Assembly (NCBI GenBank): GCA_016184115.1 | Contig: JACPDH010000070.1 | Coordinates: 1-60,785 of the forward strand | Length of the DNA stretch: 60,785 bases | Reading direction: 5' to 3' | Source: Acidobacteriota bacterium | GTDB taxonomy: Bacteria; Acidobacteriota; Thermoanaerobaculia; Gp7-AA8 | Part shown: positions 48,141 through 52,553 of the stretch, one piece after another | Layout of the letters: each line of letters begins with the position of its first letter | Numbering within the stretch: position 1 is the stretch's first letter | Program-made: the position numbers and the translations under genes | Notes under the pieces: generated by a model | What the model saw: the letters and a program-made list of their open reading frames with translations, nothing else | The model's database searches: none | What the model was told of the DNA's origin: nothing

Positions 48141-48836
48141 TCACTCCTCGATCGGCTCGGCGATGAACCGGTAGCCGATCCACGGCTCGGTCACGATGAA
48201 GCGGGGCGATGCCGGGTCAGGCTCGATCTTCTTCCGAAGTGACGCCACGTGAACGCGCACCGTGTCGGGAGTCGTCGTCGGCGTGTCGCGCCAGACGCGC
48301 GCGATGATCTGGTCGGTCGTCACGACTTTCCCGGCGCACGAGGCGAGGATCGCGAGCAGCGCGAACTCCGTCGGTGTTAGGCGTATTTCCTCGTCGCCTC
48401 GCAGGACCCGACGGCGATCGAAATCGACGGTAAGGCCGGTAAAGCAGAGTCGCGACCGGCTCTCCATCCCGCTTCTGCGGAGCTGCGCCCGTACGCGGGC
48501 GAGCAGTTCGGCGACCGAGAACGGTTTGGCGACGAAGTCGTCGGCGCCCAGGTCGAGCGCGCGGACGCGATCGGCCTCACCGCCGCGTACGGAGAGGACG
48601 ATGATCGGTGTCGTCGATGTCTTGCGCATCGTCGTGATCAACTCGAAGCCGTCGATTCCCGGCATCGCGAGGTCGGTGAGGACGAGATCGGGCTTGTCGC
48701 TGCGTGCGACGGCGAGCCCCTCGCGCCCGTTGCTCGCCTCGATCACGTCGTAGCTCTCGCCGCGAAGCTGCGCGACGATCGACCGGCGGATCGCCGGGTC
48801 GTCTTCGACGACGAGGATGCGCGAGCTGCCGAGCAT
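48141..48836 (-). CDS. OmpR/KdpE-family response regulator
   Basis: 231 residues. The receiver domain (about 1-120) has the acidic pair in VVEDD, phosphoacceptor Asp in LVLTDLAMPG, the switch Ser in VLSVRGG and Lys in FVAKPFS. The winged-helix DNA-binding domain (about 130-228) has LTPTEFALLAILASCAG and the recognition helix region PDTVRVHVASLRKKIE, close to KdpE. ATG 48836 overlaps the sensor's stop (TGATG), so the pair is translationally coupled. The four-copy direct repeat at 50520-50559 is its likely binding site. Confidence 0.9.
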   Translation of the reverse strand: MLGSSRILVVEDDPAIRRSIVAQLRGESYDVIEASNGREGLAVARSDKPDLVLTDLAMPGIDGFELITTMRKTSTTPIIVLSVRGGEADRVRALDLGADDFVAKPFSVAELLARVRAQLRRSGMESRSRLCFTGLTVDFDRRRVLRGDEEIRLTPTEFALLAILASCAGKVVTTDQIIARVWRDTPTTTPDTVRVHVASLRKKIEPDPASPRFIVTEPWIGYRFIAEPIEE

Positions 48837-50344
48837 CACGGCGCCGCCTCGGTCGTCATGCGCGCTCCGGGCGCGTCGAGGCGGGCGATCGTCCCCCCTC
48901 CCTCGCGCTCGAACCACTCGACGCTTCCACCGCTCAATGCGGCGAGCGTGCGCGCGAGCTCGATTCCGAGGCCGCCACCGTCGATCTTCGGAGCCTGGAT
49001 CGTCCTCACCCGCTTCGCCTGTTCGGCGGTTAGGCCGGCGCCGCGGTCTCCGATCTCGATCCAGACGCGGCCCGGAACCTCGGCCGACGGCATGGCGCGG
49101 AGCTCGATCGCCGTTCCTGCGGGTGCCGCATCGTCGGCGTTCTCGATGAGGTTGATGACGATCTCGAGTGCGAGAGACGGGTCGACGAAAAGGTCGAGCG
49201 TATCGTCCGCGACCGTCGTCTGGATCGGACGAGCGTCGGTGATCGTTGGGAGCGCCTCCCGCGCGGAGCGGAACAGGTCGGCGGCAGGTGTCGGCTCGCT
49301 GCGCGGCGACACGATGCCCGCCTCGAAGCGGGCAAGCGACAAGAGGTTGTCGATCCGGCGATGAAGTCGCGCGACCTCGTCGCGAATCGCGCGAACGTGA
49401 GATCTCGCGCCTTCGGAGTCGGGCCCCGCGCGCTCGAGTGCCTCGCTCTCCACCGCGAGCACGGTGAGCGGCGACTTCAGGTCGTGCGAGACCGCCTGCA
49501 GTAACGACGATTTGAGCTCGTTTGCCTGACCGAGCGCTTCGACGTGCGCGCTCTCGCGCATGAATCGCTCGCGCTCGATCGCAAACGACAGGAGGTTCGC
49601 CGCGGAGTCGAGCGCAGTTCGCGTCTGCACCGCGCCGCGGGCGATGAGCGCCGCACGCACCCTGCCGCTCGCGGTCAACGGAACGCAGACGTCGCTTCCA
49701 TAGGGAGAGGGGATGTCGGTCGTCCTGCCATGCCTGCCGACCCCCGCGACGATGTCCTCGACCTCGTCGGTCATCGGCTCCCCGGTCCACGACAGCACTT
49801 GCTGCTGTTGGGGCGATGCCCCGAAGAGAATCACACCGCCGCTCGCGGCGCCGATGCGCTGGAGGTAGCGGCTCGTCGCCGTGCCGATCTCTTCGTTCCC
49901 TCCCGCCCCGCGTAACAGCGAGACGCTCATCTCATAGAGCGCCTCGATCTCTTCGCGGCTGGCGCGCGCGTTCTCGCCCTGCTGCCGCTCGCGAACCAGC
50001 AGCCTGTTGGCGAGCAGTGAGGTAAGCAGGAAGGTCGTGAGGGCGATCCAGTTCTCCGGATCGTCGACGACGAGTGTGTGTTTCGGAGGGAAGAAAAAGA
50101 AGTTGTAAACGAGCGTTGCGGCGATCGCGGTGATCGTCGCGATCGGGAGAGGCTGTCGTGATGCGACCAGGAGCACGCCGACGAGCAGCACGAAGCCCGC
50201 GCCCGCCGGATTCAGCTGCAATGCCATCGCGCTCGCGCTCAGCAACGCGACGAGGAGCAGCGATCGTCCGAGCCGTGCCGCGAAGAACTTCACGACGTCA
50301 GCGCGCGTCGACCGCCCGCGCTCGAGAATCCCGGACTTGATCAT
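48836..50344 (-). CDS. KdpD-like sensor histidine kinase lacking the KdpD/Usp N-domain
   Basis: 502 residues. Four membrane helices of the KdpD DUF4118 type come first (GRSLLLVALLSASAMALQ; FVLLVGVLLVAS; TITAIAATLVYNFFFFPP; LTTFLLTSLLANRLL), then a GAF domain (about 135-260), HisKA with H287 in VSHDLKSPLT, and HATPase_c (N-box LIENADDA, G-boxes GDRGAGL and GGGLGIELA). E. coli KdpD is about 894 residues; its long cytoplasmic KdpD and Usp domains are missing, so this is a short form. The start is uncertain: ATG 50344 overlaps a small upstream frame; GTG at 50293 would avoid that. It pairs with the regulator next door. Confidence 0.88.
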   Translation of the reverse strand: MIKSGILERGRSTRADVVKFFAARLGRSLLLVALLSASAMALQLNPAGAGFVLLVGVLLVASRQPLPIATITAIAATLVYNFFFFPPKHTLVVDDPENWIALTTFLLTSLLANRLLVRERQQGENARASREEIEALYEMSVSLLRGAGGNEEIGTATSRYLQRIGAASGGVILFGASPQQQQVLSWTGEPMTDEVEDIVAGVGRHGRTTDIPSPYGSDVCVPLTASGRVRAALIARGAVQTRTALDSAANLLSFAIERERFMRESAHVEALGQANELKSSLLQAVSHDLKSPLTVLAVESEALERAGPDSEGARSHVRAIRDEVARLHRRIDNLLSLARFEAGIVSPRSEPTPAADLFRSAREALPTITDARPIQTTVADDTLDLFVDPSLALEIVINLIENADDAAPAGTAIELRAMPSAEVPGRVWIEIGDRGAGLTAEQAKRVRTIQAPKIDGGGLGIELARTLAALSGGSVEWFEREGGGTIARLDAPGARMTTEAAP

Positions 50345-50465
50345 CCGCGCAGCTTCTCACGCCGAAGACGCCGAGCGCGATCGCCGCGACGATGATCGCC
50401 GCGAGGATCCAGTCCTCGAACGTGGTTCCGACGAGGCGCGCGATCTGGCGAATGATCCATCGCAT
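50298..50465 (-). CDS. Candidate 55-residue single-span membrane protein
   Basis: A short frame (ATG 50465 to TGA 50298) encodes a basic amphipathic start (RWIIRQIARLVGTTFEDW), one clear helix (ILAAIIVAAIALGVFGV) and a charged tail. It lies between the operator and the sensor kinase gene and overlaps that gene's annotated start by 47 nt, or stops 4 nt before an alternative GTG start of the kinase. The other frames here are arginine-rich, so the hydrophobic frame stands out. The ribosome-binding site (GAAGG) is too close to be convincing. It is not KdpF by sequence, but has a similar size class and position. Confidence 0.45.
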   Translation of the reverse strand: MRWIIRQIARLVGTTFEDWILAAIIVAAIALGVFGVRSCADDQVRDSRARAVDAR

Positions 50466-50519: not shown

Positions 50520-50559
50520 CGTCAAGCGCGCATTAGGACGGCATTAAGAGTTCATTAAG
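50520..50559 (-). promoter_or_regulatory. Four direct repeats at 11-bp spacing: probable response-regulator operator
   Basis: Read on the minus strand: CTTAATG (50559-50553), CTTAATG (50548-50542), CCTAATG (50537-50531) and CTTGACG (50526-50520), each separated by 4 nt. The last contains TTGACG, a good -35 hexamer for the sensor/regulator operon. Direct repeats one helical turn apart and overlapping -35 are the standard binding mode of OmpR/PhoB/KdpE-family regulators. The site lies between the two-component operon and the divergent kup gene, so it may control both. Confidence 0.7.
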
Positions 50560-50648
50560 CACGAATTTCAGTGGCGATTCGACCGCTACCTTGATCGAGG
50601 AGACGCAGACGGCATCCACCGTCGCGCGCCCTCGCGAGGAGGTATTGA

Positions 50649-52553
50649 TTGTCAAGCGATGCATCGGCGCACCGAGCGGCGGCGCCGGGTGGGACCAGAC
50701 TTCTTTCTCTTTCGTTGCTCGCACTCGGAATCGTCTACGGCGATATCGGGACGAGCCCGCTCTACGCACTTCGCGAATGTTTCAATGGGCCGCACGCGGT
50801 TCCGGTCTCGACAGAGAACATCCTCGGGGTGCTCTCTCTGATCTTCTGGACTCTCGTCACCATCGTCACGATCAAGTACCACGTCTACGTCCTTCGTTTC
50901 GACAATCGCGGTGAAGGAGGAATCCTCGCGCTTCTCGGCCTGATCGGATTGACCAACAAGCGTCGGAAGCGTGCGAAGTTCGCGATGGTCGGGCTTGGCG
51001 TGTTCGGTGCCGCGCTTCTTTACGGCGACGGGATGATCACTCCCGCAATCTCGGTGCTCAGTGCGGTCGAAGGGCTCGAAGTGGCGACGCCTTTGTTCAA
51101 GCCATACGTCATCCCGATCACGATCGCCATTCTCGTGCTTCTCTTCGCCTTTCAGAGGAAGGGGACGGCGGGAGTCGGGATGGTGTTCGGTCCGATCACT
51201 CTCTGCTGGTTCGCAGTGCTCACGGTGCTTGGCGTCCGAGGAATCATGCTCGAGCCACGCGTGCTCGCGTCGCTCAATCCCGTGCACGCGTGGACGTTCT
51301 TCGCGAACAACGGCTTTCATGGCTTTCTGGTGCTCGGCGCGGTTTTTCTCGTTGCCACCGGAGGCGAGGCGCTTTACGCCGATCTGGGACACTTTGGAGA
51401 ACGGGCGATTCAGATCGACTGGTTCTTCATCGCGGGCCCCGCGCTGATGATCCAGTACCTTGGCCAGGGAGGGCTTCTGATCAGCCAGCCCGCGACGGCG
51501 GTGAACCCGTTTTACCTTCTCGCGCCGAGCTGGAGCGTTTACCCTCTCGTCGTGCTCGCGACCTGCGCGACGATCATCGCGTCGCAGGCAATCATCTCGG
51601 GAGCGTTCTCGCTCACGCGGCAGGCGATTCAGCTCGGATACCTTCCGCGAATGGAGATCATCCACACGTCGAAGGAAGAGATCGGGCAGATCTACATGCC
51701 AACCGTGAACTGGGGACTGATGGTCGCGACGATCGCGCTCGTCGTCGGTTTCGGTTCCTCGAGCAACATCGCGGGAGCGTACGGCGTTGCGGTCAGCACG
51801 ACGATGGTCATCACGACGCTGCTCGCCTACGTCGTCGCACGCGATCTTCGCGGCTGGAGCAGGCTCGCGGCGATGAGCGTGACAGTGGCACTGCTCGTCG
51901 GCGACATCGCGTTTCTCGTCGCCAACTATTTCAAAGTCGCGGACGGCGGCTGGTTCCCTCTCCTGATCGCTTCGGTCGTATTTGCGGCGATGACGACCTG
52001 GCGACTCGGTCGCGACACACTCACGGCGAAGCTGCAGGAAGGCGCGCTTTCCCAGGAGATGTTCGTCGATTCGCTTCGACGCCGCCCCCCGATCCGCGTG
52101 CCGGGAACCGCGGTCTTCATGCACCGCAATCCGACCGCGGTGCCGTCATCGCTTCTCCACGCGCTCAAGCACTTCAAGTCACTTCACGAGCGGGTCATCC
52201 TTCTCTCGCTCACGAGCGAAGAGGTGTCGCACGTCGGTGACGCAGAGCGACTCGAGCTCGCAGACCTAGGGGAGGGAATCCACCGGCTCGAGGCGCACTA
52301 CGGGTACATGGAAGACGTCGACGTGCCGGCTCTGCTCGAGCGCGCGGCGGCGAAGGGTATCGTCGTACCGCCGATGGAGACGACGTACTTCCTCGGCAGG
52401 GAGACGCTCGTCAGCGGTGGGCGAAAGAGCGGGCTGGCGCCATGGCGCGAGAAACTCTTTGCCTCGATGATGCGCAACGCAGCGGGAGCGGCTCGCTTCT
52501 TCAAGCTTCCGCCTAACCGCGTCGTCGAGCTCGGCGCCCAGATCGAGCTTTGA
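50649..52553 (+). CDS. kup: Kup-type potassium uptake protein
   Basis: 634 residues, about 12 membrane helices followed by a cytoplasmic domain of about 170 residues. LGIVYGDIGTSPLYALRE is the diagnostic Kup/HAK/KT start, RGEGGILALLGLIG, LYGDGMITPAISVLSAVEGLE and GTGGEALYADLGHFG-like ATGGEALYADLGHFG follow. The TTG start at 50649 is supported by GAGGAGG 6-7 nt upstream. It should carry out K+/H+ symport across the inner membrane. It is divergent from the KdpDE-like pair, and no kdpFABC genes are present in the window. Confidence 0.93.
   Translation: MSSDASAHRAAAPGGTRLLSLSLLALGIVYGDIGTSPLYALRECFNGPHAVPVSTENILGVLSLIFWTLVTIVTIKYHVYVLRFDNRGEGGILALLGLIGLTNKRRKRAKFAMVGLGVFGAALLYGDGMITPAISVLSAVEGLEVATPLFKPYVIPITIAILVLLFAFQRKGTAGVGMVFGPITLCWFAVLTVLGVRGIMLEPRVLASLNPVHAWTFFANNGFHGFLVLGAVFLVATGGEALYADLGHFGERAIQIDWFFIAGPALMIQYLGQGGLLISQPATAVNPFYLLAPSWSVYPLVVLATCATIIASQAIISGAFSLTRQAIQLGYLPRMEIIHTSKEEIGQIYMPTVNWGLMVATIALVVGFGSSSNIAGAYGVAVSTTMVITTLLAYVVARDLRGWSRLAAMSVTVALLVGDIAFLVANYFKVADGGWFPLLIASVVFAAMTTWRLGRDTLTAKLQEGALSQEMFVDSLRRRPPIRVPGTAVFMHRNPTAVPSSLLHALKHFKSLHERVILLSLTSEEVSHVGDAERLELADLGEGIHRLEAHYGYMEDVDVPALLERAAAKGIVVPPMETTYFLGRETLVSGGRKSGLAPWREKLFASMMRNAAGAARFFKLPPNRVVELGAQIEL

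Follow-up and report, generated by a model that had tools for sequence, protein, structure and literature searches.

The analysis of a 60,785-nucleotide stretch of an acidobacterial genome (the window) points to a KdpE-type operator, CATTAAG-N4-CATTAAG at positions 50542–50559, which would be shared by the divergent promoters of a kup gene and a kinase operon, and through which the adjacent KdpDE-like pair probably activates both the Kup transporter and itself (probability of about 0.8). KdpDE is the textbook dedicated switch of the KdpFABC pump, with KdpE activating its kdp target, and Kup is usually regarded as constitutive. While the control of kdpFABC by KdpDE is already known, what appears to be new here is a KdpDE-like pair linked to Kup by the box. 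Our literature search found no paper on KdpE control of kup, although such papers may exist, and the only directly tested KdpE–kup case that was found is negative, the KdpE of Sinorhizobium fredii having bound the kdpFABC promoter and not the kup or trkA promoters (PMC9239096).

Genes and repeats at the locus

The kup gene (50649–52553, plus strand) encodes a K+ uptake permease with the Pfam domains K_trans (9e-182) and K_trans_C (2.9e-48) over cut-off, as is the TIGR00794 model, and starts with TTG behind a Shine-Dalgarno-like GAGGAGG at 50636–50642. On the minus strand lies a histidine kinase of 502 aa (48836–50344), whose translation may actually begin downstream of 50298. Pfam finds in it the DUF4118 transmembrane domain, HisKA and HATPase_c expected of KdpD, and finds neither the N-terminal KdpD domain (PF02702) nor the Usp domain of the full-length protein. 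The kinase aligns only to residues 410–881 of the NCBIfam KdpD model, below the equivalog cut-off, and is best read as the counterpart of the C-terminal, histidine-kinase half of KdpD. Its partner (48141–48836, minus strand) is an OmpR-family response regulator of 231 aa with receiver and winged-helix domains (PF00072, PF00486), whose top PDB match is E. coli KdpE (4kny, 2e-56), with PmrA/BasR far lower. KdpE is likewise the best of all NCBIfam models, and we call the protein KdpE-like rather than KdpE because its 205 bits fall under the KdpE equivalog cut-off of 325. At the positions aligned to KdpE R193, R200 and T215, which are needed for DNA binding (PMC3264566), all three residues are identical.

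The kinase operon opens with a small ORF of 55 aa (50298–50465, minus strand) containing one hydrophobic, putatively transmembrane stretch. A similar peptide occurs at the corresponding position in the relatives G001 and G016: against G001 the codon-position differences are 18/10/32, biased to the third position, and in G016 the peptide is kept at its start. The peptide has no Pfam match, on which ground its identification as KdpF was rejected; lying between operator and kinase, it may be a small protein that partners the kinase or Kup.

The 183-bp region from this ORF to kup contains four 7-mers at exact 11-bp steps, CGTCAAG (50520–50526), CATTAGG (50531–50537), CATTAAG (50542–50548) and CATTAAG (50553–50559) on the plus strand, which read CTTAATG, CTTAATG, CCTAATG and CTTGACG on the minus strand from 50559 to 50520, just as in the original prediction. 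Neither the 3-copy nor the 4-copy array was equalled in 1000 dinucleotide shuffles of the region (0/1000). The last two copies form the core operator (CTTAATG-N4-CTTAATG on the minus strand), and the first two (50520–50537) are putative accessory half-sites in the same 11-bp register. In E. coli, the KdpE half-sites TTTATA and TTTACA are separated by a 5-bp spacer at an 11-bp period (PMC3264566), and the core operator, written as TTAATG-N5-TTAATG, likewise consists of two T-rich 6-bp direct repeats. At up to 2 mismatches, the box has 2 matches in the window against 0.02 expected. Across the genome (4.42 Mb in 126 contigs, 97% complete, Thermoanaerobaculia of the Acidobacteriota), it occurs at up to 1 mismatch only here, its own overlap aside, and the next best match has 3 mismatches. 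At that level there are 21 box matches, fewer than the 74 of a reversed-pattern control, and we therefore claim no further targets in this genome.

Conservation of the box and promoter spacing at kup

Orthologous pairs divergent from kup were found in G001 (kinase 76% and kup 79% identical) and G016 (68% and 72%), where the inner pair reads CATTAAGAGTTCGTTAAG and CGTTAAGACTCCATAAAG, respectively; part of the likeness in G001 may reflect general sequence relatedness. In G012, G002 and G008, a remoter kinase–regulator pair (about 45% and 63%) adjoins a kup of 72–76% identity, again with the box upstream of kup. Over these five other genomes, the box before the kup linked to a two-component system (TCS) has 1, 2, 1, 2 and 3 mismatches, and the shuffles as good for the five upstream regions number 0, 0, 0, 0 and 5 of 500. 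The match at the kup of G003 is weak (5 mismatches, 111/500 shuffles). TCS-linked kup genes, that of the window included, form a clade with a tree support of 1.0, of which 6/6 tree members stand beside a kinase–regulator pair. The upstream regions of 31 ordinary kup genes revealed no box (lowest p about 0.055), p-values that are conservative because the null set includes some true sites. A scan of contigs returned only the two closest relatives, both Thermoanaerobaculia MAGs, and a search of the phylum in a sample of 396 genomes yielded no equally strong match outside the class.

Lack of conservation of the repeats in sister genomes had been named as refuting the original prediction of a four-copy operator, and the prediction passed this test, though only for part of the array. 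The inner pair is kept in relatives, and the outer copies are not reliably so: at the two nearest orthologous loci, in G001 and G016, copy 1 survives in part (CGTGAAG, GATGAAG), whereas nothing of copy 2 is retained (TGCGGGG, CGGGTGG). The array itself is real, and the conserved unit is the two-half-site box at 50542–50559; the four-copy array was rejected as a functional unit.

The spacing between box and promoter was also found to be conserved. A putative kup −10 element, TACCTT (50587–50592, plus strand), starts 28 bases after the core operator, and a TANNNT element starts at exactly this distance past the box in five kup promoters of the same orientation (TACCTT in the window's genome, TAACCT in G001, TACCGT in G016, TAGACT in G012 and TACACT in G008), a common offset reached in 0/100000 mononucleotide shuffles. 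From this we infer that the box occupies about −57 to −40 of kup. The box of the window is in forward orientation towards the kinase and reversed towards kup; that of the G002 kup is forward, opposite to the other kup boxes, and is followed by TACACT after 22 bp. On the kinase side, the best candidate for a −10 element is TTCAAT (minus strand, 50518–50513), an uncertain assignment; in second-clade kinase promoters, an element resembling TTATCG, TTAGAG or TTCACT often stands, by eye, about 20 bp past the box. The TTGACG at the end of the array, which had been proposed as a −35 box, was rejected in this role for the kinase promoter, since no convincing −10 lies at 16–18 bp and the motif is absent in G016.

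The same box at other K+ genes of the class

A position weight matrix (PWM) trained on the window clade located forward-orientation boxes upstream of the kinase gene at 8 more loci. A further PWM was built from the boxes of kinase genes, kup and gene X, which encodes a 140-aa membrane protein, with the kdp and kimA loci left out of training. Against 100 shuffles per locus, 16/32 distinct kdp loci scored p ≤ 0.02, with boxes that point forward and mostly keep to consistent positions; about 15 are credible, the match in G024 (L093) having been discounted for its resemblance to coding sequence, and the Fisher value for kdp was left unused as it covers six duplicated loci. The box was also found in 6/12 kimA upstream regions at p ≤ 0.015, the KimA-like protein matching the solved KimA (PDB 6s3k, 1.9e-57), and in 5/7 loci of gene X at p ≤ 0.01, two of them training members. 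Some kinase, kdp and kimA loci have no clear box. The recurrence of the box in front of kdp, kimA and kinase genes, together with the features of the site itself, supports the proposal that the operator belongs to a KdpE-type regulator.

In most loci, the kinase–regulator pair has Kup, KimA or KdpFABC as a neighbour. KimA, a K+ importer of the APC superfamily with no counterpart gene in the window, is represented in relatives by a KimA-like gene that takes over the position of Kup next to a pair of this kind, an arrangement seen in many genomes (L083, L084, L086, L158 and others). Protein X (L081:8569-8991, L079:7798-8220 and relatives) is a hydrophobic protein of about 140 aa, encoded between regulator and kup or near kimA or kdp, which matched no known family and is a candidate for a new K+ regulon member. 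Elsewhere in the class, in another family (L131, L140, L145 and L148), kup and kdp operons are divergent with CTTGAYG-type 11-bp boxes between them, and one regulator may serve both. Upstream of kdpA in L128–L155, an extra small membrane-protein ORF appears to open the kdp operons, before the KdpF-like one.

Among 149 genomes, those with PF02702 chains are largely those with kdpA, 36 having both over cut-off, in keeping with the split KdpD of PMC11018627. In the family of the window, 10/18 genomes, that of the window included, are without PF02702 and kdpA and keep the kinase and regulator, a count in which some assemblies are incomplete; the deep nodes of the kinase–regulator tree are weak. 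The box is conserved in related soil bacteria and in relatives precedes other kinds of K+ importer as well, so that the regulator appears to have retained its role through exchanges of the transporter. We lean, by a little over even odds, towards a K+ regulon spanning the Thermoanaerobaculia, in which the KdpE-type box and the kinase-only KdpD are kept, KdpFABC, Kup and KimA are exchanged, protein X is added and the 55-aa peptide is a possible sensor accessory.

Alternative readings and the proposed K+ circuit

The genome carries two kup genes, and neither kdpA nor trkH was found in its 97% complete assembly, nor was any PF02702 domain over cut-off. The part of the original prediction that placed a KdpDE-like pair beside a divergent kup in the absence of kdpFABC is thereby supported, as the genome has no kdpA. 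It does have a second KdpDE-like pair, C78 (G000, L035:7458-9625), with the variant box CTTTAGCTCTCCTTTACG and a regulator that is 61% identical to that of the window and nearly the same in its recognition helix. No Kup, KimA or Kdp gene was found in the stretch retrieved around this pair, which may represent cross-talk or a separate target.

That the box serves the kinase operon only, with kup as a divergent bystander, is an unlikely reading. It would explain why some kinase genes without a divergent kup also have the box upstream, and the box faces the kinase in forward orientation, in agreement with the usage of KdpE in E. coli; yet in G012 and G002 a separate box, at a distance from the kinase promoter, stands before kup, the spacing to the kup −10 element is invariant in five genomes, and kdp and kimA promoters bear the box as well. 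This spacing, of 27 bp, and the weak −35 region also suit an activator, which speaks against an arrangement in which the regulator represses kup and releases it at low K+. Repression could be argued from a box that abuts the kup −35 region and is reversed relative to kdp promoters, but the box lies upstream of the core promoter rather than over it and KdpE activates its known kdp target, so that we consider repression improbable.

The site could alternatively belong to another OmpR-family regulator. PmrA boxes are CTTAAT-N5-CTTAAT-like and resemble it, and the close similarity of the C78 regulator would allow that paralog to act here. Such an assignment is nonetheless quite doubtful, given that the best solved relative of the window regulator is KdpE, with PmrA/BasR much lower, that occurrences of the box follow KdpE-like loci and K+ transporters, and that the box of the C78 operon is a different one. 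It is hardly credible that the periodicity arose by chance in an intergenic patch richer in AT: some perfect two-copy 7-mer pair at a period of 10–12 was reached in 44/1000 dinucleotide shuffles of the 183-bp region, but three and four copies never were, the box is unique in the genome, and its conservation in six genomes, across genera, refutes an accidental origin.

We therefore retain the reading in which a KdpDE-like system controls Kup and itself, the K+ circuit that was originally proposed and that is supported by the conserved box, the promoter spacing, the KdpE contact residues and the missing kdpA. Conservation of the box, its uniqueness in the genome, the promoter spacing and its presence at kdp, kimA and kinase promoters all come from sequence comparison. 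In the proposed mechanism, the short KdpD-like kinase would phosphorylate the adjacent KdpE-like regulator, presumably upon K+ limitation, and the phosphorylated regulator would bind the tandem box head-to-tail. Activation rather than repression would follow on both sides: on the plus strand at a predicted kup promoter, where the reversed box would stand immediately ahead of a weak −35 region, and on the minus strand at its own operon of small membrane peptide, kinase and regulator, towards which the box has the KdpE-like forward orientation. Cross-talk between pairs is possible because the C78 pair has a similar box.

Compared with the E. coli KdpD/KdpE–kdpFABC system, the locus shares a KdpE-like regulator with the counterparts of R193, R200 and T215 and tandem T-rich half-sites at an 11-bp period. 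It differs in its proposed target, Kup in a genome with no kdpA, in a kinase without the N-terminal KdpD/Usp part, and in a box that is common to divergent promoters and reversed towards kup. The S. fredii system is likewise one of KdpE-type regulation of K+ uptake, with the difference that kup is unbound there and is the proposed target here. The kinase also resembles the split KdpD, in which a serine-kinase chain and a TM/GAF/histidine-kinase chain are separate polypeptides (PMC11018627), in that it corresponds to the histidine-kinase chain and kdp-bearing relatives have PF02702 chains; it differs in persisting in a genome with neither kdpA nor a serine-kinase chain. The pair would represent KdpE together with one half of a split KdpD, the histidine-kinase half, now paired with Kup, the presumed loss of kdpFABC having come before or after this pairing.

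If this is true, a KdpDE-like pair without the Kdp pump drives Kup, and the regulator is found without its usual transporter. The circuit predicts an inducible Kup, and the box would allow K+-responsive genes, among them that of a small membrane protein not yet studied, to be recognised from sequence in a phylum with few cultured members.
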